A stretch of DNA of 29,443 nt, taken from the IMG/VR virus record IMGVR_UViG_3300018049_000102, positions 1 through 29,443 of that record. One strand, given 5' to 3'. Numbering within the stretch: position 1 is the first letter of the stretch; each line of letters begins with the position of its first letter. Shown one piece after another: positions 1-28,484 of the stretch. The position numbers and the translations under genes are program-made. The notes beneath the pieces were generated by a model, which had not been told where the DNA came from, searched no databases, and saw only the letters and a program-made list of their open reading frames with translations. The DNA is from a virus.

Positions 1-3000
1 ATACTTTACATGATCTTTCTGCTAGACTAATTGGTTTCCAAAAAAGGAATTATTTGAGCAATCTAATTATAGATGATGTAAGCCAATTAAAATTTTATAA
101 AGGATTTATACAAGAAAAAGGAACAAAAAATTCTTTAAGCAAACTTTTTGAACCGCTAAGTGCTCAAGGAGAGGAAAGTTTAGAATTTTTTGAAGAATGG
201 GCTGTGCGAAGTGGAGTATATGGTGCTTCTGAAGATATAAAACAAATAGAAATACCACTTCCTGATACTAAGATGATCGAAAGTCCACAACCTGTTCTAT
301 TTACAGATAATTTGCCAGCAGAAAAATTCGATAACATATACAGAGTTTTGCCATCAGATCTTTTAGATAAACCTTTAGATTATACTAGTAATGTATTTCC
401 TATATTACAAAACACAGCCGAATTTATTAAATCATCTGGGTATGTAGATGAAGATGATATTGATTTTGAAGCAGCAAGTGTTAATGATTTAGCTTTAGGA
501 AATGTAAATGTTTTTAGACTAGGTGGTTATTTACATTTGACTAATCAAGATAACAGTGATTGGACTGTATATCAGCATGTTGAAACAAATCTTAAAGCTA
601 CAGTATTGACCGAAGCAACTACACTAGACACCCAAGGTAGATTAATATATGAACTGCAAGTAGACCAGTGGGTAGGAAATAATCTTCAAATTGGAGACAT
701 GGTTGCCGTCCGAGGAGCAACTGAATTTAATTTTAACGGGTTTTATAAAATTATTGATGTTAATCTAAATAAATTAAGTATCAAAGTTCCAATTGATAAT
801 GACATAAACGGTTTTGAAAATCAAAATTTAATCGTTACAAAATTACGTAAAGTAAGAATACAAAATACCAGTGAAGCAAATGCAATAGTAGATCAAAATA
901 TCTACGATAATCAAAAATTATGGGTAGATAACATAGATTCAAATTGGCAAGTTTTACAAAATCAAAAAGTATATTCTTTTTTACATCAATATGATAATCC
1001 TAGTGATTGGGACAGTACTCAACAAAAATTTACAGATTCCATGACAGCTACAGATGATAACAGAAATTTGTTTGTATCATCAGCAGGCGATGATAGCGGA
1101 AAAGTTTTTGTATACAAAAGGACAAATGAAAATGCAAACTTGCAGTTGCAACAAGTATTATCTTTTGATGAAATTTCAGATTGGAAGCCATTAACAGATT
1201 ACAAAAATGGTGCAAGAGTAAGATATGATAACAAATATTATCTACTTAATTTGACATTGACACCTGAAGAAACGTATACTAGTGAAGAAACATTCAATAG
1301 TTTCAAATGGACAGAAATTGATTCTCCTAGTGGTTATATAGATATTTTTGATCAATTTGGAGCAAGCATCGATGTAAGTAGCGACGGTGAATACCTAGCA
1401 GTAGGTGTTCCAAATGCATCTGGTGTTAAAACAAAATATCTAGGTAATTTCAATCCAGATATAGAATATACAAAACATGATATTGTAAAATTTAGAGAAA
1501 GCTTTTGGCAAGCAAATTTAACTGTTTTCCCTCAGATAGGTACGCAGCCATTTTCTACTTTTGATAGTTATATCGATCTAACATCAAGAGATGACACAGA
1601 CAGCACAAATTTACAACTTTTAGTTGCAGGAAAATTTGGCTTGCCAACCGGAAACATAGATCATATGTTAATACGTGCTCCTATAGATATGTATATAGGA
1701 ACAAAAGGTAGAGTTGACGGGCAAGCAGGCGACAAAATTAATTTATCATGGAACAGAGTAAGCTATGCATTTCCTACACTTGATAGATATTTGCCTTTTG
1801 ATAATCAGATACCAGAAATTACACCAGAATTTTTATCGCAAGAACACGAAATTATAGAAAAAATAGATGCAATTCTATACGTAGATACCTATGTTAGTTT
1901 ACCTACAGTAGGAGAAATTATAGAAACTGATACAGGATCAGGAGAAGTTTTTTACATAGCAAGTTTTAGAGATAGTGCTGTAATATATTTGAAAAATATT
2001 AATGGTATTATAGATATTACTGGAGAATTATTTGCTCTTAATACCGGTAACTTTATAGGTTTTTATACTCAAGAATCGACCTATGCAACTACTCCGTCTG
2101 TAGGAGGGTTCTGGTATATTAATACAGCTGAATTTGACGAAGCAGGTAATTTAACATCTGGATTTACATATACAAACAATGGTAGATATCTAGATATAGG
2201 CAGAGGATTAGTGTATGCAGATATTAGACCAAGCAGTAATAATGATGCAGACAGACCTTTTACATATTATAATATACAAACTACAGTAGATGATATAGGC
2301 AACTTTGTTTTAGATAAAAACCGCGTTAGTTTTTTAACACATCTAAGCTACAGAGGCGATATTGTTGACGAAGAAAGTAACTTATGGGTATTGCGAGTTG
2401 GAAAAACCTACAGCGATTTATTGAATAGTCAAGGAGCATTAGTAGGACAAGGCAACGAAAATAACAAAGTTTTAAAATTGAAATTTTTTGAAAATGAATC
2501 TTTTGTAAACAATATTAATTCAAAAGGTTATAATATCGATGAATTAAATGGTGAAAATAAATTATATGATATTTGGGACGGATACATAGACTTTTCATTT
2601 ACAGAATTTGACTTTGTCGGTAATCCATTTGAACCTGTTGTAGGAGATATAATACAAGATGTGCAGATTCCTAGAGACGGAGCCGGAGGTCTTGCTCTAA
2701 CTAGTAGAAGCACTAGTACAGCTGAAATAGTCAGCTATAGAAAAGAATTTAATTCAGTTCGTGTATACTTAAAAATATTGACTGGTACATGGGAAGAATT
2801 GAATAATATTGGTAGATTCCAAATACGAAGACTAGCAAATGAGGCAGTTAGAGGTCCTGGCGATGTAGATCGTGTAATGGGCACTGTAGAGGATGTAGAC
2901 AACGATATATTATTAGGAACTAACAAAGTAGGAAAATTATTAGTATTTGAGAAAAACGGTGAAGATCCTGCTGACGTATTTACAGCAGTAGATAATGCAG

Positions 3001-10700: not shown

Positions 10701-12752
10701 ATGGCATACCAAATTAGTTATACAGATGTTGTAAACAAAGGAACAATTATAGTAGAAGATGCTACTCTAAATGATGAGACTAGCTTAACTATACCTGGAC
10801 GTAATGTTACTTCATATGGACAAGCTATTGCAGAAAACTTTTTACACCTATTAGAAAATTTTGCAAATAGTAGTGCTCCGGAGCGTCCAGTAGAAGGACA
10901 GCTTTGGTATGATAGTTCTGAAAGTGTAAATCAACTGAAAGTTTATGACGGTACAACCTGGACAGCCAGTGGAGGACTTAAAAAATCTCCTTCACAACCA
11001 GAAGTATCTAACAGTATAGCAGGCGATTTGTGGGTAAACACAGAAAGTCAGCAATTATATTTGTTCACAGGTACAGGATGGGTTTTAGTTGGTCCAGAAT
11101 TTAGTGATGGACTTTTAACAGGAACTCAATCTGAAAACATTATAGGATCAAATGATAGTGTTTATTCAGTATTGACTGTAAAAATTAAAGATAAACCTGC
11201 AATAATTATATCAGACAGCGATTTTGTTCCTAAAACAGTAATTCCGGGTTTTAGACAAGGTATAAAGGCAGGTATGAATATTACAAATCAGCCTTTAGTT
11301 AATGACACTTTAAAATATAATGGCATAGCTGAAAAAGCAGAGGCACTTATTGTGGGTGAAGAAGTTGTGCCTGCAATAAATTTCCTTAGAGGAAATGCCC
11401 AAAGCCAAACAAGTTTTCCTTTGATAGTAAAAAATGATGAAGGTTTATCAGTAGGTTCGGGAAATCAATTAAAGATTGCTGTAGAAAATGAAGCAGTAAT
11501 TTTGCAACAAAACATTGTAGGGTCTAATATTGACTTTAGATTAAAAACATCTACTGGATTACCTACGGTGATGCGACTAGATTCTGAGGGCTTTGTTGGA
11601 ATTAATACCACTGCCCCTGAAACAGAATTAGATGTAAAAGGCGACATTACAATAGCACCTAGAGAAGGTAAGCCTGAATCCGGTATACTGAACGTAACTA
11701 GTGCTAATAATAGCACAAGCATAAACAGCGGTTCTATAATAACCAGCGGCGGCGCCGGCATTGCTTTAGATTTATATGTTGGCGGCAATGTAGACATAGG
11801 AGGAATATTACAAACAGGAAATATTGCTCCTGATTCATCTGGCACAAGAAATGTAGGAACAACAAATAATAAGTATGATCAAATTTTTGCCAATACTTTT
11901 ATAGGTAATGTACAAGGTAATGTGAGTGGTACAGTCACTGGTCGGGCAGGTTCTGCAGATAGACTATCAAGTGCAACTACATTTTCTGTATCAGGCGATG
12001 TAGAAAATAATAGTTTTGAATTTGATGGTCAAACAGGCGGCACTAGTAAAACTTTCAATATACAGGTTGCCAACAGTTTTATTGCTAACAAAGATCTAAC
12101 ATTTGATGCGTCAAATGCAGATGAATTATTATTAAATGTAAAAACCGGGTCAACTGGCGTATATAGGATATCAAAAAGAAACTTTCTTAAAACTATTCCT
12201 TTAGTTCCACCAGGATCAATTATGCCATATGGGGGTATAAACGCTCCTGAAGGATGGTTGTTTTGTGATGGCAGCGAGGTTCTAAAATCAGATTATACAA
12301 CATTGTTTAACGCAATTGGATTTAATTTTAAAGATTCGTCGTTATTATCAGATGAAGGAGTAAACAGTTTTGCGCTTCCGGATTTACGCGGAAGATTTGC
12401 ATTAGGTTTAGACAATATGGGCGGACAGCCTGCTAATAGGGTAACTGATATTGCAGCGGATGCAATAGGCGGAAATGCTGGCAGTGAATCACGCACAATC
12501 AACACAGATAATTTACCCGAACATGAACATGATATGGAAGCGCCATCGGGAACGCAATATTATGGATTGCGTGTAGGCGCCGGCGAACCAGTTGATGAAG
12601 AAGCAATTACATTTACAATAGATCCAGGTACGGGAGGCACTCAAGCATTTCCTGCTAGCGGCGGCGTAAAAACTACAGGAGATCTCAATCAACCAATAGA
12701 AACTATGAATCCATTTTTATCTGTAAACTACATAATTTATACTGGAGAATAA
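10701..12752 (+). CDS. Tail fibre / short-fibre-like protein with tail-collar domain
   Basis: First of three tandem paralogues. Residues 1-130 carry the shared scaffold: MAYQISYTD, 'YGQAIAENFLHLLENFA', 'GQLWYD', 'YDGTTWTASGG', 'GDLWVNT'. The middle (about 310-500) has beta-helix-like fibre patterns such as 'ETELDVKGDITI' and 'LYVGGNVDIGG'. The last ~180 residues form a phage tail-collar domain (Pfam PF07484 type): 'VPPGSIMPYGG', 'APEGWLFCDGS', 'FALPDLRGRFALG', then 'LPEHEHDM' and a terminal 'MNPFLSVNYIIYTGE'. Collar domains form trimeric fibre tips in T4 gp12-like short tail fibres; the HEHD could be a metal site like the HxH of gp12, which is inference. Start ATG is five bases after the previous stop; the next gene begins one base after this stop. 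Probably an adsorption protein of the virion. Confidence 0.87.
   Translation: MAYQISYTDVVNKGTIIVEDATLNDETSLTIPGRNVTSYGQAIAENFLHLLENFANSSAPERPVEGQLWYDSSESVNQLKVYDGTTWTASGGLKKSPSQPEVSNSIAGDLWVNTESQQLYLFTGTGWVLVGPEFSDGLLTGTQSENIIGSNDSVYSVLTVKIKDKPAIIISDSDFVPKTVIPGFRQGIKAGMNITNQPLVNDTLKYNGIAEKAEALIVGEEVVPAINFLRGNAQSQTSFPLIVKNDEGLSVGSGNQLKIAVENEAVILQQNIVGSNIDFRLKTSTGLPTVMRLDSEGFVGINTTAPETELDVKGDITIAPREGKPESGILNVTSANNSTSINSGSIITSGGAGIALDLYVGGNVDIGGILQTGNIAPDSSGTRNVGTTNNKYDQIFANTFIGNVQGNVSGTVTGRAGSADRLSSATTFSVSGDVENNSFEFDGQTGGTSKTFNIQVANSFIANKDLTFDASNADELLLNVKTGSTGVYRISKRNFLKTIPLVPPGSIMPYGGINAPEGWLFCDGSEVLKSDYTTLFNAIGFNFKDSSLLSDEGVNSFALPDLRGRFALGLDNMGGQPANRVTDIAADAIGGNAGSESRTINTDNLPEHEHDMEAPSGTQYYGLRVGAGEPVDEEAITFTIDPGTGGTQAFPASGGVKTTGDLNQPIETMNPFLSVNYIIYTGE
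12744..12748 (+). promoter_or_regulatory. Ribosome binding site supporting a GTG start
   Basis: GGAGA lies inside the end of the upstream fibre gene, five bases before the GTG at 12754. It decides this non-ATG start, which also aligns with the MAYQ N-termini of the two paralogues. Confidence 0.65.
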
Positions 12753-12753
12753 A

Positions 12754-14655
12754 GTGAGTTATCAACTAAACAAAACAGACGGAACATTACTTACTGAATT
12801 AATTGATGGACAAATTGACAATTCGTCTACTAATCTTGTTTTAGTTGGTAGAAATTATTCCGGATATGGAGAATTTTTTAATGAAAATTTTATTAAATTA
12901 TTAGAAAATTTTGCTAACACTTCTGCTCCTAGCAATCCTTTAGTAGGTCAACTATGGTATGACAGGTCGGATGAAAGATTAAAAATTTATGACGGCACTA
13001 CATGGAAAGCAAGCGGCGGTCCGTATGTGCAAAATACTAGACCGCAAATGGTTGCAGGCGATTTGTGGATAGATAACTTAAAAAATCAACTTTATGCATT
13101 CGACGGCAATGATTTAATTTTAGTTGGACCACAATATACAGAATCACAAGGTGTAAGTGGATTTAAAATCGAAAGCATACTCGATACTCAATCTAGATCA
13201 AGAACACTAGCAAATTTATATATTGCTGGCGAACTAGTTGCTGTGCTAAGTAGTTTAACATTTACGCCCGTTTATAGTCAGAGGATTTTAGGTTTAGTAA
13301 CAGAAGACAATCCAAATGGTATAATAAATGAAGGCATAAATGTAATTGATAGTGCCAATTTTAGATTTTATGGAACTGCTAGTGGTGCTAATGCTCTTAT
13401 TACAGGTGCAGGAGTTACTAGAACAGCCGACCAGTTTTTACCTTCAGATGCTAATGGAGTAACTGTTGGTACATTAACAATTCAAAACTCAGGTGGTTTA
13501 ACAGTTGGTTTATCACAAAATCATGTTCAAAAAGTTGTTGGACCGAGATTTTATTTTGAAAATCAGTTATTAGATAATGATATTAGTTTGCGTGTTAGAA
13601 CCACACCATCCGGCGCAGTTATTGTTGATGCGTTGTATATAGATGCATCAACAGAACGAGTAGGCATTTTTACAAATACACCACAGTACACTCTAGATGT
13701 AAACGGTGATCTTAGAATAACTGGAGATTTAGTTGTTGAAGGCGATACAACTACCGTTGAAACAACAACACTTCTAGTTGAGGATAAAAATATTGATCTT
13801 GCACATGTGAAAGGCGGTTCATATGGCGATGATACAGCAGTTGACGGCGCAGGATTAACAGTATTAGCTAGTACTACAAACAAAACATTTACGTGGGTTA
13901 ATGCAAATAATGCATGGACATCTAATTCAAATCTAAATTTAACTTCTACCGGTTCAACTTATAAAATTGGCGGTATAGACAAAATTACCAATACAACTAT
14001 TGATCCTAGTATCGATACTGCACTTGGTCTAACTAGGATAGGCACACTGATTTCTCTAGAAGTTGATGGCACAATTACAGTTAATAATACTTTACAAAGT
14101 GCAACTACACTTAATTTTATAGCAAATGATGTAGATATCGATGGCAGAGGAATTTTAATTACCGGTGCTGGCGATATTCATGTTACAGATAGTCAAAAAA
14201 TCACAGGGTTGGCTGATCCTACACAAAACCAAGATGCAGCTACAAAGTTTTATGTAGACAATCAAATTGCTACTGAACCGATTGTGTTTTCTATGGATAT
14301 TACAGGGTTGGGTACAGGCGCAACACTATATTCTAATTTAATTGCATACTTAGATGATTTATATCCTGCCGCAGTAGAAAATGCGGGTAAATCAGCTAAA
14401 ATACACGCAACATCTTATTCTGGTGCTACTGTTAGCGGTATCAACGTATCGGTTGCGGACAACAATACAGGAGTTTTACAAAAATCATTTATAGAAGTTG
14501 ATCTAGCAGGCGGCGGCACAGGAGCAGTTGTACAAGATATTGTAGCAAATACTACTGCATCTGGTAGTGCTACACTTTCGCCATCTAGACAACTTATTAC
14601 TTTTTCTTCAGATGGTGCTGCATGGAATTTTGTTAGTGACACTGCATATCCATAA
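12754..14655 (+). CDS. Tail fibre-like structural protein, second paralogue
   Basis: Starts at GTG to give MSYQLNKTDGT, matching the paralogues on either side. The first ~130 residues repeat the shared scaffold ('GYGEFFNENFIKLLENFA', 'GQLWYD', 'YDGTTWKASGG', 'GDLWIDN', 'LVGPQY'). Residues ~300-360 have a fibre-like stretch ('RVGIFTNTPQYTLDVNGD', 'ITGDLVVEGDTTTVET'). Near residue 490 is 'DPTQNQDAATKFYVD', a motif common in phage fibre proteins just before a C-terminal tip. The C-terminus (from about 505) is a Gly/Ser/Thr-rich beta domain with no collar motif, so it differs from its neighbours. No signal peptide, no membrane segment. It lies one base after the previous gene and is followed by an AATAAATA site. 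Role as a fibre or adhesin subunit is inferred from the shared scaffold and context. Confidence 0.83.
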   Translation: MSYQLNKTDGTLLTELIDGQIDNSSTNLVLVGRNYSGYGEFFNENFIKLLENFANTSAPSNPLVGQLWYDRSDERLKIYDGTTWKASGGPYVQNTRPQMVAGDLWIDNLKNQLYAFDGNDLILVGPQYTESQGVSGFKIESILDTQSRSRTLANLYIAGELVAVLSSLTFTPVYSQRILGLVTEDNPNGIINEGINVIDSANFRFYGTASGANALITGAGVTRTADQFLPSDANGVTVGTLTIQNSGGLTVGLSQNHVQKVVGPRFYFENQLLDNDISLRVRTTPSGAVIVDALYIDASTERVGIFTNTPQYTLDVNGDLRITGDLVVEGDTTTVETTTLLVEDKNIDLAHVKGGSYGDDTAVDGAGLTVLASTTNKTFTWVNANNAWTSNSNLNLTSTGSTYKIGGIDKITNTTIDPSIDTALGLTRIGTLISLEVDGTITVNNTLQSATTLNFIANDVDIDGRGILITGAGDIHVTDSQKITGLADPTQNQDAATKFYVDNQIATEPIVFSMDITGLGTGATLYSNLIAYLDDLYPAAVENAGKSAKIHATSYSGATVSGINVSVADNNTGVLQKSFIEVDLAGGGTGAVVQDIVANTTASGSATLSPSRQLITFSSDGAAWNFVSDTAYP

Positions 14656-14657
14656 TT

Positions 14658-14666
14658 GAATAAATA
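14658..14666 (+). promoter_or_regulatory. Candidate T4-like late promoter (GAATAAATA)
   Basis: GAATAAATA starts three bases after the stop of the upstream fibre gene and ends 27 bases before the ATG at 14694. It shares the AATAAATA octamer with the junctions at 10072 and 19436. Confidence 0.5.
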
Positions 14667-14678
14667 AGTATATTACTT

Positions 14679-14683
14679 AGGGG
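14679..14683 (+). promoter_or_regulatory. Ribosome binding site deciding ATG over TTG
   Basis: AGGGG lies 10 bases before ATG 14694 but only one base before the in-frame TTG at 14685. The spacing favours the ATG, which also gives MAYQIDRY, matching the paralogues. Confidence 0.55.
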
Positions 14684-14693
14684 CTTGACAAAA

Positions 14694-16178
14694 ATGGCGT
14701 ATCAAATTGATAGATATAATAATACACTGTTAACAACAGTAGAAGACGGTACAGTAGATCAAACAACAGATCTTAAATTTATCGGAAAAAACTATGCCGG
14801 TTACGGTGAAATACAAAACGAAAACTTCCTGTTTTTGTTAGAAAATTTTAGCGGTGCAAATCAACCATCTAGGCCTATAAGCGGCCAGGTTTGGTTTGAT
14901 AGCGGTAATAGTAAATTAAAATTTTACGACGGCACACAGTGGAGAACTACAGGCGGCGCTGAAGTTGGCGCGGACGAACCTGCAGGACTTACAGACGGTG
15001 ATTTTTGGTGGGATAATACCAACGACCAATTATATGTTTACAATGGCACTGCTTTTGTTTTAATAGGCCCACAAAACGCAGGCGAAGGTGTTACACAAAT
15101 GCAAAGTCGTGAAGTGTTAGATAACGGCGGAGCGACTAGAAGCATAATTGCAGCAACAGTAAACGATAACGTTGTTTCTATAATTAGCTTTGACTATTTT
15201 GTGTTAAATGCAAGCGAAACATCTTTAATTGATGCAGGATATAGTACCATTTATAAAGGTATCACTGTGCCAAATTATTCGGTAGTTTCTTATACTCCAT
15301 TTACAACTGGACGCCACAGTTTTGGAGGAACTGCCCTTGATTCTGACAGGTTGCAAGGATTAGCTGCAAATCAGTTTGTACAAACTTCTAATCCAACATT
15401 TACAACTTTGGTATCATTTCCAGATGCAGGTATACGTGTAGGTGATAGCCAAGATTTAAAGATACTTGTAGAAAATGGAACCGAAGCTGTCATTTCAAAT
15501 ATCACAGGCTTGAATAGTAAGATTAAATTTAAAGCAACAGATAGCGGCGGCGTAGAAACACACATTGCTACACTTACTAGCTCAGGTTTGAATCCTTCTA
15601 CTAACAATACCTACGATCTAGGTAGTGCATCTTTAACTTGGAATGATATATATGCAAGTAGTTTTGTTGGAGTTGCAACGAAAGCTGCTTCCTTAAATGA
15701 TGGATCCGGCAATTATAGAACAGCATCTGTAGGAACATCTAACAATACAGTGGCGGTTCGTGATGCAACAGGTAACTTGTCAGCAAATTTATTCCAAGGT
15801 ACTGCTACTCAAGCAAGGTATGCTGATTTAGCAGAAAAATATACAACTGGCGAAGAGTTAAAAGCAGGAACTGTAGTTTGTGTATGCGACCATACAGACC
15901 ATGAAGTTGAAGCAGTGTCTAAAGGTTGTACAGCTATCGGAGTTGTATCTACTGACCCTGCATTTATGATGAATAGTGAAGCTGCCGGACAATACATTGG
16001 TTTAAAAGGACGATTGCCTGTAAGAGTAATTGGACCAGTTGCAAAAGGCGATGCTGTATATGTTGACGACAATGGTTGTGCAAGTACAGCAATTAATGGA
16101 GGTTCAGTTGTTGGCATTGCATTAGAGAACAACTTTGACGAGGGTGAAAAACTAGTAGAATGTGTTCTAAAGGTATAA
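14694..16178 (+). CDS. Tail fibre-like structural protein, third paralogue, with YADLAEKY domain
   Basis: N-terminal scaffold shared with the two preceding genes: MAYQIDRYNNT, 'GYGEIQNENFLFLLENF', 'GQVWFDSG', 'YDGTQWRTTGG', 'GDFWWDN'. Around residues 300-345 'NTYDLGSASLTWNDIYAS' is a typical fibre beta pattern. The last ~120 residues begin with 'ATQARYADLAEKYTTGE' and run through 'GTVVCVCDHTDHEVEAV', 'GVVSTDPAFMMN', 'GLKGRLPVRVIGPVAKGD' to the end. This C-terminal type recurs in marine phage fibres and recalls the Peptidase_G2/intramolecular-chaperone style of fibre C-termini ('DxAExF'), but I see no clear catalytic pair. It holds five cysteines, unusual for an extracellular fibre. Start chosen from the ATG, the RBS spacing and the paralogue alignment. 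A 9-base gap separates it from the next gene. Confidence 0.83.
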   Translation: MAYQIDRYNNTLLTTVEDGTVDQTTDLKFIGKNYAGYGEIQNENFLFLLENFSGANQPSRPISGQVWFDSGNSKLKFYDGTQWRTTGGAEVGADEPAGLTDGDFWWDNTNDQLYVYNGTAFVLIGPQNAGEGVTQMQSREVLDNGGATRSIIAATVNDNVVSIISFDYFVLNASETSLIDAGYSTIYKGITVPNYSVVSYTPFTTGRHSFGGTALDSDRLQGLAANQFVQTSNPTFTTLVSFPDAGIRVGDSQDLKILVENGTEAVISNITGLNSKIKFKATDSGGVETHIATLTSSGLNPSTNNTYDLGSASLTWNDIYASSFVGVATKAASLNDGSGNYRTASVGTSNNTVAVRDATGNLSANLFQGTATQARYADLAEKYTTGEELKAGTVVCVCDHTDHEVEAVSKGCTAIGVVSTDPAFMMNSEAAGQYIGLKGRLPVRVIGPVAKGDAVYVDDNGCASTAINGGSVVGIALENNFDEGEKLVECVLKV

Positions 16179-16187
16179 GGGATCGTC

Positions 16188-19100
16188 ATGGCAGAAGTTA
16201 CCGCAGCAAGAATTAATAACCTACAATCAAGGATTGAACTAATTTTAGGTAATGGCTCCGGTACAACCGGGTATGGACAGCTTATACAAAGTTCTCAAGT
16301 GTTACCCGGAGATTTAATTGATGCTGATAATCTAAATAATTTATATGTTGATATTATAAAAGCTAGGATTCATCAAGTTGGTCCAAGTGATCCTAGTGTT
16401 ACAGAAATACAAATTGTATTAGAAAATCAAAACGTAGTTGCAGACGAAACTTCATTTATAATTAATGATCAAGGACTAGAGTCAGCTGACCCCGAAGGAA
16501 CAAAAAAGGGTATATCAGATTTTGAGTCATTAATGCGTAAAGTCGAAACCGACAAAAGTAATGTTCATCCTAGCCAAGCAAGCTCTCAAACAGCAGTCAC
16601 TTCGACAAGAACAAGTACTTGGAATGGTTTAATATTTCACGAGTTTACTGTTACTTTTGGCAGTAGTGATGCAAGACGTCACTATTTTAATACAGGCGGC
16701 GAAATTAGAATTGATCCATCTAATACAAATGCTAGTACTCCTAAGGGTTTAGATTGGGCGGCGTTGACAAACGAAGTAGGTATAGTAAGATTTAACAGTC
16801 TTGCAACTGCCGCATCTTCCGGAAGCGGAACTAATATAGGTAATTTTGGCTTAACTAGTTCGTATCAAACCATATACACAAAAATTGGCGCAGGATCTTA
16901 CAGCGGTGTATATGCAGGAAATATCTTTTTAGTAAAAGCAAGAGCAGTAAGTGAAACTCAAATATCATTTAGAATTGAATTTAATGATGTTGTTGGCGAT
17001 AACAATGTGGATAATAATGTTGACGGGACATTAAGAAGTTTAATTACACTATTTAGAGCCACAGGAGATGTAAGTGTTCCTTCTCCTGGTGTATTCACAA
17101 ATGTTGATCTAACAGGCCAGACACCGACAAGTGGACCTACATATGTATTGACTCCAAGTGTATCTGCTGTAAATGAAGGATCTGCATTTACTATTACACT
17201 AAGCACATTTAATGTTCCTACAGGAAGTACAGTGCCATATACTATCACTGGCATTAGTGCTGCTGATTTAGTGTCAGGTAGTTTATCTGGCAATTTTACC
17301 ATTGACAACAATGGCATAGGAATAGAAACTTTTGCAGTTGTAGCTGATTTTGCAACAGAAGGTGTAGAAACTTTTGAACTTGCATTAGATAATAATCTAG
17401 CACGAACATCTGTTTTAATTAATGACAGTAGTGCAGAATCAGGAGCAGCAACATATATAGTTACTCCTAGTTCAACAAGTATAAACGAAGGCGGCACTGT
17501 TAGTTTCATACTTACAACCACAAATGTAACAAATGGTACACAAGTGCCATTTACTATATCGGGTATTCAACGTGAAGATCTATCAGACGGAACTTACAGC
17601 TTAGATGACTGGTACAACGAATTTAGAACCTCCTACTTAAACGGAATATCTAAAGAAGATGCACTAGAAGGTTTTGATTTTGTATATCCATATTATAATT
17701 CAAACAATCAGTATCAAACACAAAATTGGGGTACTAGGTATGGACTGTTTAGATTACCTGATGCTGCCGGTATCGCATATTGGACAGATGAGTACATACG
17801 TGTACACAATAAAAATGGAACTGCTTGGGAAAATGTATTCTGGAGTAGCGTAAATTACAGTACAGTGCCAATAGCATGGATACAAGCAAACGGCACAGAA
17901 ACTGATTCATCAAGATCTCTAACGCCTAACAAAACATATTTAATTGGTACCGGAAGCGGATCAGGAGTAACATATACTTGGGATGACTGGTATGCAGAAT
18001 TTCAAGCACAATATAATTGGGCTTCGACAAAAGAAGCAGTACTATCGGATAAAGACTTTATATTGAATCTATACGAGAGTAATGATGCTTTTAGTACAAG
18101 TTTAGGTACTAGATACGGATTATTTAGAAAACCGAGAGCAGAAGGCATAGCATATTGGGTAAATGATATACAAAGAGGTATTTCTCGATCAACAACACAA
18201 GATAACTTTTTCTATTCTGCAAGCCTAGGAACTACACCGTGGGGAGGTCTCACAGATGCTGAAAGGTCTTTAACACAAGATAAAGTATTCATAAGTGCAG
18301 GAAACGGTGTTGTATATGATAGAGGTACCTTTGGAACAGTAGGAGACAGAGGTACTCCGGGCGGCACCTTGTCAGATGAATTACAAGATGCATTTACAGT
18401 TTATGGTAATACAGCAATAAAGAATTACAATCCAGTAGCGGATGTAATTACTGAAGGTCAGGAAACAATGACACTTACATTAGATAATCATCCTGCAGTG
18501 TCTGCAAGTATTACAATAAATGATACGAGTATTAGTGGTGAACCACCCATAACAATTGACGCACCAACTATCACTAGTTGGACATTTAATAGAAGTGTTG
18601 CATATTGGGGAGAACCTGTTTTCGCAACATGGAATGTGTTAAATGCTGATAGTGTTACTGTATCACTAGCAGGGCCAGGAATATCACAGATTGACACATA
18701 TACTACACTTAACGGAAGTAGTGATATAGTAATATTTGAAGAAGCAGACGGAACAGGTAATGTGACTGCTACGCTTACAGCATCTAATGCAGGCGGCAAT
18801 GTTACAGCAACAGTAACTATACCAGTAAACGCACCAGAACCTACAATCAGTGCATTTTATCCAGAACCTTTTGGTGATATAGAAATAGACACACCAGTTA
18901 GATTAATTTATCAAGTTGCAAATGCAACGACCGCAAGTATTACAACTAATTATGATGTAGAATATAGTGATTTGCCACTTCCGAGCGGCTCAACTGGTGC
19001 AACATCATTTACGCTAGAAGAAATAGGAACAAAAACTGCTACCCTTACCGCACAAAATAGTCAAGGCAATACTGTATCACAAACAGTTAGCTTTGAAGTA

Positions 19101-19415
19101 TTAAGTTCAGTTGAACCTACTGCTCCAAGTTGGCTTGTACAGCCTGAATGGTCAGGTCTTGCAGAAAGTGTTGCATTCGGAACAACTGGCAGAGGATTTA
19201 TACAAGCAGAAGGCGATATTGATTCGGTAGAATATACAATTACAGGACCTTCAGGAACCGCAACAGATGTTGTAGATTATACTCCTGGCTCATTCTATTT
19301 TACTCCTAACTATGGATTTACAGCAGAAGGAGACCATACTGTGACAATGACTGTTACAGGGCCAGGCGGCTCTATTAGCGGTAGCGATACGGTCACAGTA
19401 TTGCCGCCAACTTAA
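16188..19415 (+). CDS. Large adhesin-like structural protein: Calx-beta, DUF4214-like modules, Ig-like domains
   Basis: 1075 residues, preceded by an AAGGGAT ribosome site. Residues 1-65 form a conserved scaffold ('LQSRIELILGNGSGTTGYGQ', 'NNLYVDIIKARIHQVG') shared with the gene at 19462. Residues 140-295 are a beta domain ('HEFTVTFGSS', 'FNTGGEIRI') also shared with that gene. Residues ~317-415 are one Calx-beta repeat ('NEGSAFTITL' ... 'EGVETFELALDN'). A second Calx-beta starts at ~421, is interrupted at ~468, and resumes at ~729 ('AFTVYG' ... 'EGQETMTLTLDN'). The interruption holds two tandem copies (469-594, 595-713) of a DUF4214-like unit ('DDWY' ... 'RYGLFR' ... 'GIAYW'). Three Ig/PKD-like domains follow (~787-881, 882-972, 976-1074). 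Calx-beta and Ig domains are typical of surface-binding proteins, and Calx-beta may bind calcium. Likely a virion adhesin; no signal peptide or enzyme motif. Confidence 0.85.
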   Translation: MAEVTAARINNLQSRIELILGNGSGTTGYGQLIQSSQVLPGDLIDADNLNNLYVDIIKARIHQVGPSDPSVTEIQIVLENQNVVADETSFIINDQGLESADPEGTKKGISDFESLMRKVETDKSNVHPSQASSQTAVTSTRTSTWNGLIFHEFTVTFGSSDARRHYFNTGGEIRIDPSNTNASTPKGLDWAALTNEVGIVRFNSLATAASSGSGTNIGNFGLTSSYQTIYTKIGAGSYSGVYAGNIFLVKARAVSETQISFRIEFNDVVGDNNVDNNVDGTLRSLITLFRATGDVSVPSPGVFTNVDLTGQTPTSGPTYVLTPSVSAVNEGSAFTITLSTFNVPTGSTVPYTITGISAADLVSGSLSGNFTIDNNGIGIETFAVVADFATEGVETFELALDNNLARTSVLINDSSAESGAATYIVTPSSTSINEGGTVSFILTTTNVTNGTQVPFTISGIQREDLSDGTYSLDDWYNEFRTSYLNGISKEDALEGFDFVYPYYNSNNQYQTQNWGTRYGLFRLPDAAGIAYWTDEYIRVHNKNGTAWENVFWSSVNYSTVPIAWIQANGTETDSSRSLTPNKTYLIGTGSGSGVTYTWDDWYAEFQAQYNWASTKEAVLSDKDFILNLYESNDAFSTSLGTRYGLFRKPRAEGIAYWVNDIQRGISRSTTQDNFFYSASLGTTPWGGLTDAERSLTQDKVFISAGNGVVYDRGTFGTVGDRGTPGGTLSDELQDAFTVYGNTAIKNYNPVADVITEGQETMTLTLDNHPAVSASITINDTSISGEPPITIDAPTITSWTFNRSVAYWGEPVFATWNVLNADSVTVSLAGPGISQIDTYTTLNGSSDIVIFEEADGTGNVTATLTASNAGGNVTATVTIPVNAPEPTISAFYPEPFGDIEIDTPVRLIYQVANATTASITTNYDVEYSDLPLPSGSTGATSFTLEEIGTKTATLTAQNSQGNTVSQTVSFEVLSSVEPTAPSWLVQPEWSGLAESVAFGTTGRGFIQAEGDIDSVEYTITGPSGTATDVVDYTPGSFYFTPNYGFTAEGDHTVTMTVTGPGGSISGSDTVTVLPPT
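17592..17969 (+). repeat. DUF4214-like module, copy A
   Basis: About 126 codons running from TYSLDDWY to RSLTPNKTYL plus a Gly/Ser linker. The core 'RYGLFRLPDAAGIAYW' resembles DUF4214 ('LgRxPDaaGlaYW'). It is the most divergent of three copies and lies inside the second Calx-beta repeat of its host protein. Confidence 0.7.
17970..18326 (+). repeat. DUF4214-like module, copy B
   Basis: Directly follows copy A and begins TYTWDDWY. It shares with copy C 'NLYESNDAFST', 'LGTRYGLFRK', 'AYWVND', 'RSLT' and a terminal DRG. DNA identity with copy C is also high, including a run of about 20 identical bases around 18078-18097, so B and C look recently duplicated or exchanged. Confidence 0.75.
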
Positions 19416-19461: not shown

Positions 19462-20766
19462 TTGCCTGTTACTATTACTGCAAATAGATTTAATGACTTA
19501 TATTCTCAAGTAGAACAAATTCTTGGACCATCGACTCCTGCGACTTACAACTGGAACGATTGGTACGATGAATACAAAACTATATACTGGGGAAGTACAC
19601 CTAAGGCAACTGTGCTTGCTTATAAAGATTTTGTTTTAAATTTATACGAAAGTAATGATGCTTTTAGTACAAATCTAGGCACCAGATATGGATTGTTTAG
19701 AAAGGCAAGAGCACTAGGTGTAGCATATTGGGTAAATGATTTGACCAACGGCTCTTCTAATCAAAACCTGATTAACAACTTTTTTACTTCTGCAAGTCTT
19801 AGCACAGTTATTCAGTCAGACGGTCAAACAGATGCTCAACGATCATTAACTTCTAGTAAAAGTTTTCTATATTCTGGAGTAGGAACTGTGGTATCAGATA
19901 GAGGAGAAGCTGGATACGGCTATGGACAATCTCTATTAAGCACACCTGTCTCTTCCACGGTAGACATAATAGATGATGAAGAATATATAAATTTATATAA
20001 AGATATTATACGGATAGATGCCCATCAAAACGGCGATGGAATTACTATTGATCCTTATGTTGTAGGTGATTATGCAACAAATCTAGCATCAACTGATAAA
20101 GTAGAAGAATTATACATATCAAATTTAGAAACCCAAGTTGGAGGTCTAGAAACTAATAGATTTGATATAGACATTACTAACCAGGCAGACATAGTTCCGT
20201 TGTTTGTACCTAGTGGGCTTTTTGTACTAGGGTCTACAAGAAGTTTACAATGGCGAACAGCTATAAGTCATATTTTTACAGTAGATTTTTCGAGCGAAAC
20301 ATCTTTAGATAGCTTTTTTAATTCGGGTGGAGAAATAAGAATGTCTTTGACATTAACGTACACTGGCGGAGAATTAAAAACCAACAACTGGAAAAATTTA
20401 ATGGCAGATGTTGGGCAAATAAGAATGGGCTATAATAAAACACAGGATTCAGATGGAATTATATCTACTAAGGGTTACGCAGATCTAAGTTCTACTTATA
20501 CAAGGGTTTACACAAGTTCTAGCACTACCAATTATTCAAATAATCAGATAGTTGTGGATGCTTTAAAAGTTGACGCTAATACTTTACAAATAAAATTGCA
20601 ATGCCAAGATTTCCATGGCGAAGGTATAGATGAATATGTAAAAGGAACAACAACGAGCCAAATGTTCCTAGCTGTACCTAATGGTGAAATACTAATTAAT
20701 GGCGAAACTATTGACACGGTCGTATATAGTGATGCTATTACAGGCACTACAGTAGCTAATTTCTAA
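19462..20766 (+). CDS. Tail/adhesin structural protein with inserted DUF4214-like module
   Basis: 434 residues from a TTG with a good ribosome site. The scaffold matches the gene at 16188: 'RFNDLYSQVEQILG' (9-22), then 'GYGQSLL' (153-159) and 'YINLYKDIIRIDAHQNG' (175-191). Between the two scaffold halves, where the neighbour has only about five residues, sits one DUF4214-like module (about residues 28-148). Residues ~265-410 are the second shared beta domain ('HIFTVDFSS', 'FNSGGEIRMS', 'VGQIRMGY'). There are no Calx-beta or Ig domains. Likely a virion structural protein paralogous to its neighbour, probably under the AATAAATA late site. It is the last gene before the sigma70-type promoter and the accessory cassette. 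Confidence 0.82.
   Translation: MPVTITANRFNDLYSQVEQILGPSTPATYNWNDWYDEYKTIYWGSTPKATVLAYKDFVLNLYESNDAFSTNLGTRYGLFRKARALGVAYWVNDLTNGSSNQNLINNFFTSASLSTVIQSDGQTDAQRSLTSSKSFLYSGVGTVVSDRGEAGYGYGQSLLSTPVSSTVDIIDDEEYINLYKDIIRIDAHQNGDGITIDPYVVGDYATNLASTDKVEELYISNLETQVGGLETNRFDIDITNQADIVPLFVPSGLFVLGSTRSLQWRTAISHIFTVDFSSETSLDSFFNSGGEIRMSLTLTYTGGELKTNNWKNLMADVGQIRMGYNKTQDSDGIISTKGYADLSSTYTRVYTSSSTTNYSNNQIVVDALKVDANTLQIKLQCQDFHGEGIDEYVKGTTTSQMFLAVPNGEILINGETIDTVVYSDAITGTTVANF
19543..19905 (+). repeat. DUF4214-like module, copy C
   Basis: From TYNWNDWY to DRG, with the same boundaries as copy B in the neighbouring gene. The core is 'RYGLFRKARALGVAYW'. It is inserted inside the N-terminal scaffold of its host protein, a different context from copies A and B. 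Confidence 0.75.
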
Positions 20767-26406: not shown

Positions 26407-27054
26407 ATGAAAAGATTAGTAGCATTTGGATGTAGTTATGCTTACGGACACGGATTACAAGATTGTTGTGAAAAGGACGGACAACCTGGTCCGTTGCCTA
26501 GTAACTTTGCATGGCCTGCTGTAATAGCAAAAAAACTACATATAGAACTTAGTAATCAATCAAGACCAGGAAGTTCTAATATAGAAATTCTACATAAAAT
26601 AAAAAGTTTTAGTTTTCGAAAAGATGACATATGTATAATACATTGGTCGTTTATAGAACGTTGGTGCAAAATTTTAGACCAAGTAGATAAAATAGGATAT
26701 CAAACTATAGGACCATGGCAAGATAATAAAATTGCAAAAAGTTTTTTTAACAGTATTTACAATGACACTACAGGAGTATTTCTTTCAAAAGTACATGCAG
26801 ACTTCGTAGGATATTATTTAAAAGACATAGGAATAAAATATATAAGTTTTGAACCGATTATATATCATACAGTGAGAAATACCCTAAAATTAAACTATAC
26901 TACACCTCACGATTATAAAAATTTATGTCATTTTCATAACAAACAACTTTATCCTTTTGCTGATACAGCGTTAGACAGCGCACATCCTGGTCCTGAAACA
27001 CACAAACGATTTGCAGAATACATACTAGAGGAATATCCTTGGCTAAAAGATTAA
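26407..27054 (+). CDS. SGNH/GDSL hydrolase-like protein
   Basis: 215 residues. Block I reads 'VAFGCSYAYGHG' (5-16) with Ser10 as the likely nucleophile, although GCS replaces the usual GDS. 'RPGSSNIEIL' (53-62) provides the Gly/Asn of blocks II and III. 'DICIIHWSFIERW' (74-86) replaces the usual GxND. Block V is 'DSAHPGPETHKRFAEYI' (190-206), with Asp190 and His193 in the DxxH spacing of the catalytic pair. This supports an SGNH esterase or acyltransferase fold, known for removing or adding O-acetyl groups on glycans and lipids. In this gene run it may trim or modify acyl groups on the glycan built by the neighbours; that is inference. The gene starts 15 bases after the upstream stop, and the next gene overlaps its end by 16 bases. 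Confidence 0.72.
   Translation: MKRLVAFGCSYAYGHGLQDCCEKDGQPGPLPSNFAWPAVIAKKLHIELSNQSRPGSSNIEILHKIKSFSFRKDDICIIHWSFIERWCKILDQVDKIGYQTIGPWQDNKIAKSFFNSIYNDTTGVFLSKVHADFVGYYLKDIGIKYISFEPIIYHTVRNTLKLNYTTPHDYKNLCHFHNKQLYPFADTALDSAHPGPETHKRFAEYILEEYPWLKD
27029..27032 (+). promoter_or_regulatory. Ribosome binding site supporting an overlapping TTG start
   Basis: AGGA lies six bases before TTG 27039, inside the end of the upstream hydrolase gene. It supports the overlapping non-ATG start; the first ATG in frame is much further in, at 27120. Confidence 0.5.
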
Positions 27055-28484
27055 CAGAAACAGACCCACAAGCAGCCGCACTAGAAGTGATTCCTTTGTT
27101 AGAGGAAATATCACCTAGTATGTGTATGGCTAAGTGGTTGTGGTCAAGTATTCATTTAACAACTGGACTTACTAACAGTTGTTTTCTACCACCTTTACAT
27201 AAAATAGATGCAGCAGAAGTAGAAGTAAATCCTAAAGCATTACACAATACAGCACAAAAGAAACAAGAACGTGCTGCAATGCTATGCGGAGAAAAACCAG
27301 AAGGCTGCTCAACCTGTTGGCGTGTAGAAGCAATGCAGGGAGATCATCTTAGTGACAGATTTTATCGTTCGTCAGAGTCCTGGGCACAAGATGGTTGGGA
27401 CGATGTAATTTCTAAAGGTGCAAAAGGTGATATTGAACCACGCTATCTAGAAGTAAACTTTAATCATGCTTGTAATCTAGCGTGTTCATACTGTTCTCCA
27501 CATCTAAGTTCTAAGTGGGCAGAAGACATCGAAGCAAACGGTCCGTACCCTACTCTAGTACCACACAACAGTATAGATTACTTTAAGCAAACAGGACAAT
27601 ATCCAATCCCTGTTAGAGAACACAATCCATATGTAGAAGCATTTTGGAAATGGTGGCCTGAACTATATCCTAAACTAAAACATTTTCGTATGACAGGCGG
27701 TGAACCGTTACTTGACAAGAATACATTTCGTGTATTAGACTATGTTGTAGACAACGGACGTCCTGATCTAGATATGAGCATTACTAGTAACGCTAGTGTG
27801 CCTGAAAAAAACTGGAATCGCTTTGTAGACACTGTAAGTTTTATTACTGAATACAATAAATTAAATTCGTTTAGACTATTTGTAAGTGTAGACGGGTGGG
27901 GCAAGCAAGCAGAATATATGCGCAACGGTCTAGACTTTGACCAGTTATGGAACAACGTAAACAACTATCTAGCAAAGACGCACAACGGTCTAGTAACGTT
28001 TATTATTACGTTTAATATGTTGAGCTTGCCAAGCATTAAACGCTTGCTAGAGGGCATATATGCGCTGCAAAAGGCCCATAACGTGCGTAAAGTACGCAGA
28101 GACGAAGACACAGGTAAATTAACGCACTACGGCAATCATCGTGTGTTTGTTGATACACCTGCACTACATCATCCTGCTTGGCAGAGCCTAAAACTTGCGC
28201 CACAAGAGTATTGGCATTATGCAGAAGAAGCATTAGAGTTTATGAGAGCTCATCCTGATGGACAACGAGAAACACGATGGACAGGATTTAAACCGCACCA
28301 AATTGCTAGATTTGAACGCTCAATAGAATTTATGAAACAAGGGTTTGCTACAGAACAAGAACGTACGGAAGCACAGCAAAACTTTGTAAAATTTTTTACA
28401 GAGTATGATAAGCGTCGCGGAATAGATTTTGAAACTACGTTTCCTGAATACAAGGAATTAAAAGATAAATGGAACAAAGATTAA
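27039..28484 (+). CDS. Radical SAM protein with N-terminal SPASM/twitch-like cysteine set
   Basis: 481 residues from TTG. 'CNLACSYC' supplies the [4Fe-4S] cysteines C145, C149 and C152 (CX3CX2C) that bind S-adenosylmethionine. 'RMTGGEPLLDK' (217-227) is the GGEP SAM-binding motif, 'SITSNAS' and 'FVSVDGW' (281-287) are further barrel strands. The N-terminus has 'SMCMAKW' (C29), 'TNSCF' (C48) and 'MLCGEKPEGCSTCW' (C83, C90, C93), which looks like a SPASM/twitch auxiliary cluster placed before the radical SAM core, an arrangement known in marine phage proteins. The reaction is unknown; relatives modify peptides, sugars or small molecules. GC content and codon use (CGT/CGC Arg, many GGT, ACG) differ clearly from neighbours: sampled 60-base blocks give 43-48% GC against about 13% in the gene at 25117. 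Possible later acquisition. Confidence 0.88.
   Translation: MAKRLTETDPQAAALEVIPLLEEISPSMCMAKWLWSSIHLTTGLTNSCFLPPLHKIDAAEVEVNPKALHNTAQKKQERAAMLCGEKPEGCSTCWRVEAMQGDHLSDRFYRSSESWAQDGWDDVISKGAKGDIEPRYLEVNFNHACNLACSYCSPHLSSKWAEDIEANGPYPTLVPHNSIDYFKQTGQYPIPVREHNPYVEAFWKWWPELYPKLKHFRMTGGEPLLDKNTFRVLDYVVDNGRPDLDMSITSNASVPEKNWNRFVDTVSFITEYNKLNSFRLFVSVDGWGKQAEYMRNGLDFDQLWNNVNNYLAKTHNGLVTFIITFNMLSLPSIKRLLEGIYALQKAHNVRKVRRDEDTGKLTHYGNHRVFVDTPALHHPAWQSLKLAPQEYWHYAEEALEFMRAHPDGQRETRWTGFKPHQIARFERSIEFMKQGFATEQERTEAQQNFVKFFTEYDKRRGIDFETTFPEYKELKDKWNKD

Follow-up and report, generated by a model that had tools for sequence, protein, structure and literature searches.

Predicted helical modules nested in the loops of two neighbouring phage virion-type proteins, and a Calx-beta-like loop that recurrently holds unrelated inserts

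Introduction

Can a domain of a phage structural protein be interrupted by other whole domains and still be one domain? The portable domains known from phage particles are for the most part repeats set end to end, and the locus described here raises the question of whether they can also be nested, one inside a loop of another. The locus lies in a virus record of 29,443 bases (IMG/VR record IMGVR_UViG_3300018049_000102), and by the window we mean this whole stretch. Two neighbouring proteins of the window, P1 and P2, are the subject of the analysis. A preliminary description, made from the DNA of the window alone, claimed that the second Calx-beta repeat of P1, which it took to be a phage adhesin, breaks off near residue 468 and continues near residue 728, that two tandem DUF4214-like units occupy the gap of about 260 residues, that the first repeat of the same protein is uninterrupted, and that the nested pair is a portable module. 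The features that we discuss are collected in Table 1.

Table 1. Features of P1 and P2 in the window, and examples of a second kind of nested domain in other loci
Feature	Position	Strand	Evidence or remark
P1, 1075 residues, virion-type, bears the nested modules	16188..19415	+	single intact open frame; N-terminal part homologous to PA5oct gp360
P1 N-terminal domain, residues 1-300, with uninterrupted ILGNGSGTTGYGQ site	16188..17087	+	paralogue of P2
CB1, complete uninterrupted Calx-beta-like repeat, residues 313-416	17124..17435	+	profile 2-103, 147 bits; aligns with the CALX CBD1 fold
CB2a, first half of second repeat, residues 417-468	17436..17591	+	profile 3-51
M1, first DUF4214-like module, residues 469-594	17592..17969	+	module alignments; mainly helical in model
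M2, second DUF4214-like module, residues 595-716	17970..18335	+	Pfam DUF4214, 25.3 bits; clade with M3, 98/97
Linker of ~12 residues from M2 to the resumption of the repeat, residues 717-728	18336..18371	+	direct reading; profile match starts at 729
CB2b, second half of second repeat, residues 729-790	18372..18557	+	profile 50-103; four strands in model
P1 C-terminal part, residues 791-1075	18558..19412	+	Ig/PKD-like by weak matches only (PKD_4, Big_13, below cut-off)
P2, 434 residues, N-terminal part split by M3	19462..20766	+
Helix segment at the P2 N-terminus, residues 1-27, to the left of the second site	19462..19542	+	matched in alignments by the start of P1 and by empty homologues
M3, DUF4214-like, residues 28-151, between '..QILG' and 'GYGQ' of P2	19543..19914	+	59% identical to M2 over 131 columns
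P2 remainder, residues 152-434	19915..20763	+	27.6% identical over 290 columns to its paralogue, the P1 N-terminal domain
Examples of the ~300-residue domain	L215:3928-4827; L237:4501-5418 (Syn33_094); L259, L248; L320, L321

One repeat, interrupted once

The second repeat of P1 is one domain with a single interruption near profile position 50, after residue 468. We say so because its two halves are complementary and because, once joined, they score above shuffled controls. A repeat profile built from nine uninterrupted Calx-beta-like repeats of relatives matches P1 in three places: residues 315-416 (the complete CB1), residues 420-468 over profile positions 3-51 (46 bits), and residues 729-782 over positions 50-103 (34 bits). 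When the two halves are joined they are found as one domain, from profile position 3 to 103, with 88 bits, as compared with 52 and 41 bits for the separate halves, and 20 joins in which the second half had been shuffled reached at most 54.6 bits. The joined halves of four relatives likewise score 72-96 bits, all above 20 shuffled controls. Searched against GenBank phages, the joined P1 repeat matches one uninterrupted stretch in Acinetobacter phage SH-Ab 15599 (43.6% identity, query 14-114, E 4e-14).

The insert consists of M1, M2 and the short linker, and M1 and M2 can be aligned to one another and to M3, a third copy that lies in the next gene and is absent from the preliminary description. 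What that description said of the P1 repeats themselves, namely where the second one stops and resumes, the two tandem units in between and the intact first one, is borne out. A broader profile extends the first half into the module in three relatives (L051-L053, profile 2-84), and the edge is blurred there.

Could the two halves instead be two separate truncated repeats that happen to have modules between them? The halves are indeed detected as separate stretches, and the arrangement of the structural model is unsure. Yet the halves are complementary near one position wherever both are seen, the joined scores exceed those of the shuffled joins in P1 and in the four relatives alike, and in the model the four strands of CB2a followed by the four of CB2b repeat the order of CB1, with tandem Calx-beta structures aligning across the insert. 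We give a pair of truncated repeats almost no credence, and a single interrupted repeat is the reading that we carry forward.

Fold and family of the host repeat and of the modules

An AlphaFold model covers P1 residues 313-790 (478 residues) with a mean pLDDT of 70.6 and a pTM of 0.34; the strands of the repeats are confident and the overall arrangement is not, so that the model does not fix the relative placement of the domains. It runs through four strands, then the helical modules, then four further strands, and its strand order places the insertion between the third and the fourth main strands. CB1 is predicted to have the fold of the NCX/CALX CBD sandwich: it aligns with CALX CBD1 over 99 residues (Z 10.2, rmsd 2.8, with a second structural aligner), and further CBD chains stand near the top of the same list. 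Foldseek ranks complement C3-type and antibody domains at the top for the P1 model and CALX CBD12 ninth, so CALX comes first only with the second aligner. Across the insert, the two repeats together can be aligned with two tandem structures: NCX1 CBD12 (3us9; Z 9.2, rmsd 7.0, 197 residues aligned, model 5..471) and CALX CBD12 (3rb5; Z 9.5, rmsd 7.9, 182 aligned, 6..466). The structure prediction that the preliminary description had proposed as a check thus agrees with it in the four strands of each half and in these alignments, but not at the level of a confident overall arrangement. Given the low confidence of the models of P1 and P2, the closure of the split repeat rests mainly on the complementarity of its sequence halves.

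The family names need to be qualified. Pfam lists no Calx-beta family for P1 at E<=1, in searches where HMMER drops most matches above 0.1, and for this reason we write 'Calx-beta-like'. For Pfam DUF4214 (PF13946, cut-off 23.2 bits), M2 alone reaches 25.3 bits, whole P1 22.7 and whole P2 19.2; since M2 by itself passes the cut-off and the whole proteins fall below it, the modules are called 'DUF4214-like'. Eight of the 15 modules match that profile at E<=10, and the match spans only profile positions 17-66 of 72. Of the two names originally proposed, then, Calx-beta holds as a predicted CALX-like fold but not as a Pfam match for P1, and DUF4214 as a likeness, with M2 above the cut-off and the whole proteins below it.

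The DUF4214 family is helical. M1, M2 and M3 are predicted to be mainly helical as well, with moderate confidence in P1 and low confidence in P2, where about two thirds of the module falls below a pLDDT of 50. Searched with a profile of the phage modules, a plasmid protein of Roseomonas that carries the annotation DUF4214 has three matching stretches (E 0.05, 1.4e-4 and 1.3e-3, with that protein searched alone), and the Roseomonas stretches and the phage modules have a common core with R, aG and W. By direct reading, the same Roseomonas protein has a Calx-beta-looking sequence ahead of its DUF4214 stretches.

Other relatives of the modules are hard to find. The 260-residue insert has no match at E<=0.01 among GenBank phages and plasmids, and P2 from residue 28 onward has none among phages. 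A search with M2 alone at E<=10 brings up nothing but weak matches (E of 2 or more), in 9 plasmid records and 15 phage records; three of the plasmid records are Roseomonas DUF4214 proteins with E about 10. The module profile has no match at E<=1 among the sequences of solved structures; 31 stretches came out of one pattern scan of GTDB genomes, and none of them could be confirmed as related; and two scans of viral contigs with module alignments gave no contigs beyond the P1/P2 group.

A second site in P2, filled and empty

The start of P2, TANRFNDLYSQVEQILG, resembles the start of P1, TAARINNLQSRIELILG. Afterwards P2 reads 'GYGYGQ' where P1 reads 'TTGYGQ', and in P2 the module M3 stands in between. 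Since the remainder of P2 is a paralogue of the P1 N-terminal domain, this one phage has both an empty and a filled form of one host domain. The homologue gp360 of phage PA5oct, by direct reading, has the site ILGTGTGSYGYGQ empty and a different C-terminal part. In the P2 model, the C-terminal part gives only weak matches, to CspA/CspB/CspC-type proteases and to galectins (best Z 7.0, rmsd 3.3, 112 residues aligned), which we leave aside.

To see how often the site is filled we used a set of 80 loci, the best 80 of 209 viral-contig relatives of the P1 N-terminal domain. The state of P2 can be assessed in 47 of these; 13 are filled and 34 are empty, and the other 33 loci are cut off or have no clear P2. 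After collapsing near-duplicates (simple similarity ratio 0.9) there are 6 filled and 14 empty forms, where L057 and L058 count separately among the six only because one of them is cut short. At the join, the alignment has 'LG-S....P.YGYGQ' in the empty forms against 'LG..[module]..GYGYGQ' in the filled ones. The module profile was made from the same modules that it counts, and the filled and empty calls are independent of weak scores: the part homologous to P2 begins at residue 31-42 when the site is empty vs. 156-161 when it is filled.

The P1 site among relatives

The first half of the interrupted repeat is present in 19 of the 80 loci, which represent about six lineages, several of them as near-identical contigs. 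All of the 18 that reach the junction are filled (L060 ends before it), and a P1 homologue in which the second repeat is present but empty was found in 0 of these 18. The number of modules varies: both halves are seen in 13 P1 loci, of which 8 carry two modules and 5 a single one. Their place varies too, as in L083, L085, L086 and L104, where a complete repeat is followed by one diverged module in a linker, and P2 is empty. Seven loci of a related clade (L094-L100) are free of modules, and the same gene there bears a pair of uninterrupted repeats; their N-terminal domain is 50-53% identical, and the first of their two repeats is matched only from profile position 17-18. In the L026/L027 lineage, the second module (L026:2037-2504) has an additional internal stretch relative to the other aligned modules.

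The homologues do not all have the same arrangement, as these module-free relatives make plain. The proposal that the module is portable is sustained by M3 in the P2 loop, by the 13 filled and 34 empty P2 sites, and by the variation in number and place, but not by an empty second repeat in P1. The insert-free allele that the preliminary description suggested looking for in relatives is thus found for P2, in 34 of the 47 assessable loci, but not for the second repeat of P1.

Probable movement of the modules between genes

Did P1 receive its modules in a single ancient insertion and pass them on vertically, with P2 acquiring its own independently? In a module tree rooted on the linker modules of L083 and L085, the M2 modules of three lineages and five P2 M3 modules form a clade (support 98/97) apart from M1. 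An AU test rejects forcing the nine modules nested in P1 repeats into one clade (lnL 13.7 lower, p-AU 0.006), where the groups follow gene position, yet were tested after the first tree had been seen, and the L083 and L085 linker modules were left outside as outgroup. The 18 filled junctions out of 18 speak for vertical inheritance; the grouping of M2 with the P2 modules rather than with M1, the varying copy number and the module outside the repeat in the L083 group speak against it, and we consider vertical inheritance without movement between genes largely refuted and very unlikely. The module trees also reject M2 as a tandem duplicate of M1. Because M2 is closer to M3 than to M1, the module has probably crossed between genes and, with that, between host folds.

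Part of the likeness of M2 and M3 has another source. A patch of 138 nucleotides (18030-18167 in M2, 19603-19740 in M3) is 80% identical, as opposed to 52-54% on both sides of it, and M2 compared with its own orthologue shows 71-78% along the whole length. This patchy identity implies that later gene conversion contributes to the M2-M3 relationship, and the core looks like a later patch, exchanged between modules of neighbouring genes. Could conversion be the whole explanation, with separate ancient modules in P1 and P2 and a later patch copied from M3 into M2? The identity contrast between the core and its sides, next to the even identity of M2 to its orthologue, is what one would expect. Against this, a tree made from the module flanks, with the most similar core omitted, again groups M2 with M3 (88/95), so that the patch explains only part of the relationship. 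Conversion alone is unlikely in our judgement, though less so than strict vertical descent. Recombination has probably acted at least twice, as we read the alignments, with a module copied between genes and then an exchange between the copies. The tree, on the evidence of one outgroup, suggests that the module was first in P1 and later in P2.

Transposition was also considered and is unsupported, as there are no repeats flanking the modules and their G+C lies in the same range as that of the hosts: no 8-base direct or inverted repeat is shared by the module edges, and the modules have a G+C of 0.36-0.37, inside the host range of 0.34-0.41.

The same loop with other inserts

Is the loop special to these modules? 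A viral-contig scan with the first half of the repeat gave 74 loci, and we surveyed the plus-strand ORFs of L161-L235 together with those of the N-terminal domain loci L063-L123, counting contigs, many of which are near-identical. The survey has 233 complete repeats and 26 split ones, and all 26 of the split repeats break at profile positions 48-64. The filter accepted first halves ending at profile 15-85, and missed three module loci, L168-L170, which the first profile finds split. Because sampling with the first half as query favours breaks after it, early breaks are under-sampled, and their absence is weaker evidence than the absence of late breaks.

Ten of the 26 split repeats hold DUF4214-like modules and 16 hold different inserts: a domain of about 300 residues; inserts of about 190-225 residues (L199, L202, L208); one of about 121 residues (L190); and a stretch of 75 residues (L180-L182), the weakest case, whose halves overlap by eleven profile positions. 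Comparisons between these insert classes, and of the classes with the modules, reach E 0.03 at best, the set being very small. The Calx-beta-like loop is therefore a recurrent insertion site for unrelated domains, with three or four further types of insert beyond the modules. The insert of L190 matches part of a cyanophage baseplate wedge family (phrog_708, E 5e-16).

The ~300-residue domain has the motif EHVFHTLHMHG and, in many copies, the edges DPEYNNG and AGASGYVV. Alone, it has no match in Pfam, NCBIfam or PHROG, and none at E<=1 among sequences of solved structures. Among the best 80 of 136 viral-contig relatives of this domain, 14 sit in a split Calx-beta-like repeat and 65 elsewhere, and one is at a contig end beside a half repeat. 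Its flanks fall into 21 groups on the left (74 loci) and 19 on the right (66 loci), the groups being made by BLAST at E<=1e-4, which leaves room for remoter kinship between them. In L248 and L259 the domain stands directly ahead of a Pfam subtilase match that begins at profile position 40 or 41. Its left flank resembles the catalytic-aspartate stretch of such enzymes, so here the domain seems to split an enzyme.

Cyanophages provide the closest view of gain and loss. The ~300-residue insert with its half-repeats, used as query, matches 85 GenBank cyanophage records, and 25 of the 25 matches listed cover the insert; several of the proteins among them are named baseplate wedge. In the three that were inspected (Syn33, S-RIM2 and S-B43) the insert has no detectable repeat around it; the host recorded for Syn33 is Synechococcus WH7803. 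Two closely related S-RIM12 phages carry the same gene, in frame, with the insert (S-RIM12_RW_25_0210) and without it (S-RIM12_Sn_31_0910), the DNA on the two sides being 90.6% and 98.7% identical. For the ~300-residue domain, then, one sees directly that a phage structural protein can gain or lose an entire nested domain in frame.

Phage context

In PA5oct (NC_071039), gp355 and gp357-gp360, all in the same cluster, carry a mark of mass-spectrometric detection (ESI-MS/MS). The giant protein of the window has homologues in PA5oct-type phages (32% over 23% of the query), and so has the N-terminal part of P1 (27-28% over residues 4-265), its homologue in PA5oct being gp360. Because the homologues in the PA5oct cluster are so marked, P1 probably belongs to the virion, in the region of the tail or baseplate, and P1 and P2 may both be in the particle. 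The word adhesin in the preliminary description goes further than this homology.

The neighbourhood of P1 has some features of its own. Three consecutive structural proteins (10701-16178) have a common N-terminal domain of about 90 residues (phrog_15511/14394), which is the second shared N-terminal domain in this cluster. The gene at 14685-16178 matches Peptidase_G2, a domain of autoproteolytic cleavage, below the threshold (21.3 vs. 25 bits). Downstream of the structural genes, 27039-28484 encodes a Radical SAM-type protein (phrog_14086, E 6.5e-11).

Discussion

The anatomy of P1 and P2 and the portability of the module are well supported. The explanation that we favour, and hold with considerable confidence, is as follows. 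P1 and P2 would be neighbouring virion proteins, associated with the tail or baseplate, of an uncultured marine phage that is distant kin to the jumbo phages of the PA5oct group, and both would be built on paralogous domains of about 300 residues. A mainly helical module of about 120 residues would have entered two unrelated folds in frame, each time within a loop: once or twice between main strands three and four of the Calx-beta-like repeat in P1, and once at 'ILG..GYGQ' in P2, with the host folds interrupted and yet preserved. Modules would then be gained, duplicated or lost, and copied between the P1 and P2 genes by recombination, and the Calx-beta-like loop would be used recurrently.

What would such modules do? 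From their position and variability, contact with the host is a reasonable guess: nested modules may project sideways and touch the cell surface, so that changing the modules would change attachment. They might instead be structural spacers, assembly aids or binders of a partner virion protein. The P2 module is near the start of its protein, an end that could be the one attached to the virion, and this fits a structural role; presence and absence among relatives would be more typical of variable, surface-exposed parts. We see a role within the particle as a substantial possibility, and contact with the host as plausible.

How general is the arrangement? The strand-three/four loop of Calx-beta-like repeats in marine phage virion proteins could be a general socket for mutually unrelated domains that are mobile in frame (DUF4214-like, and of about 300, 200 and 120 residues), the first two of which are also found in loops of other proteins, subtilases included, and which would be swapped between genes and between related phages and so vary the contact with the host. 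We hold this wider proposal tentatively, at a little under even chances.

The observations suggest that phages vary their outer proteins by swappable plug-in parts. Whole domains sit within loops, and the loop of one sandwich repeat takes four or five different inserts, a concrete grammar by which marine phages alter structural proteins and yet leave them intact. It points to tolerant insertion points that may be useful in protein engineering. And cyanophages with and without the ~300-residue insert give a direct handle on what such an insert does, with the S-RIM12 pair differing elsewhere too.

Comparison with known systems

The first repeat of P1 is like the Calx-beta domains of the Na+/Ca2+ exchanger (CBD1 and CBD2) and of CALX in its predicted fold; it differs from them in having no Pfam sequence match, and the second repeat of P1 differs further by holding two whole domains in one loop. 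The modules are like the tandem DUF4214 modules of bacterial surface-type proteins, in that M2 passes the Pfam cut-off and that there is a core in common with the Roseomonas protein, whereas the modules described here are longer (about 120 residues), belong to phage proteins and are nested in loops of other domains. The gp355-gp360 cluster of PA5oct has a similar gene order and similar sizes, homology having been tested for the giant protein and for the P1 N-terminal part with gp360; PA5oct differs in having one structural gene fewer before gp360 and no P2 after it.

Ig-like domains, according to Fraser and co-workers, are reportedly small and portable and have spread among unrelated phage virion proteins, and these beta domains are said to be added mainly at ends or by frameshift. 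The likeness is in small portable domains; here, the domains are helical modules and stand inside loops of another sandwich.

BACON repeats of crAss-like phages are tail-associated, and their evolution has been attributed largely to the horizontal transfer of individual domains in two lineages, and to duplication in a third (PMC6949934). They are tandem arrays, and the abstract of that article makes no mention of nested insertion, whereas the modules of P1 and P2 are nested.

Among the papers listed by a literature search (subscription journals and preprints lay outside its scope), none describes this arrangement of nested modules. Domain exchange between phage structural proteins is already known; what is new here is that it takes place inside loops, that neighbouring genes show it in two host folds, and that one loop is used repeatedly.
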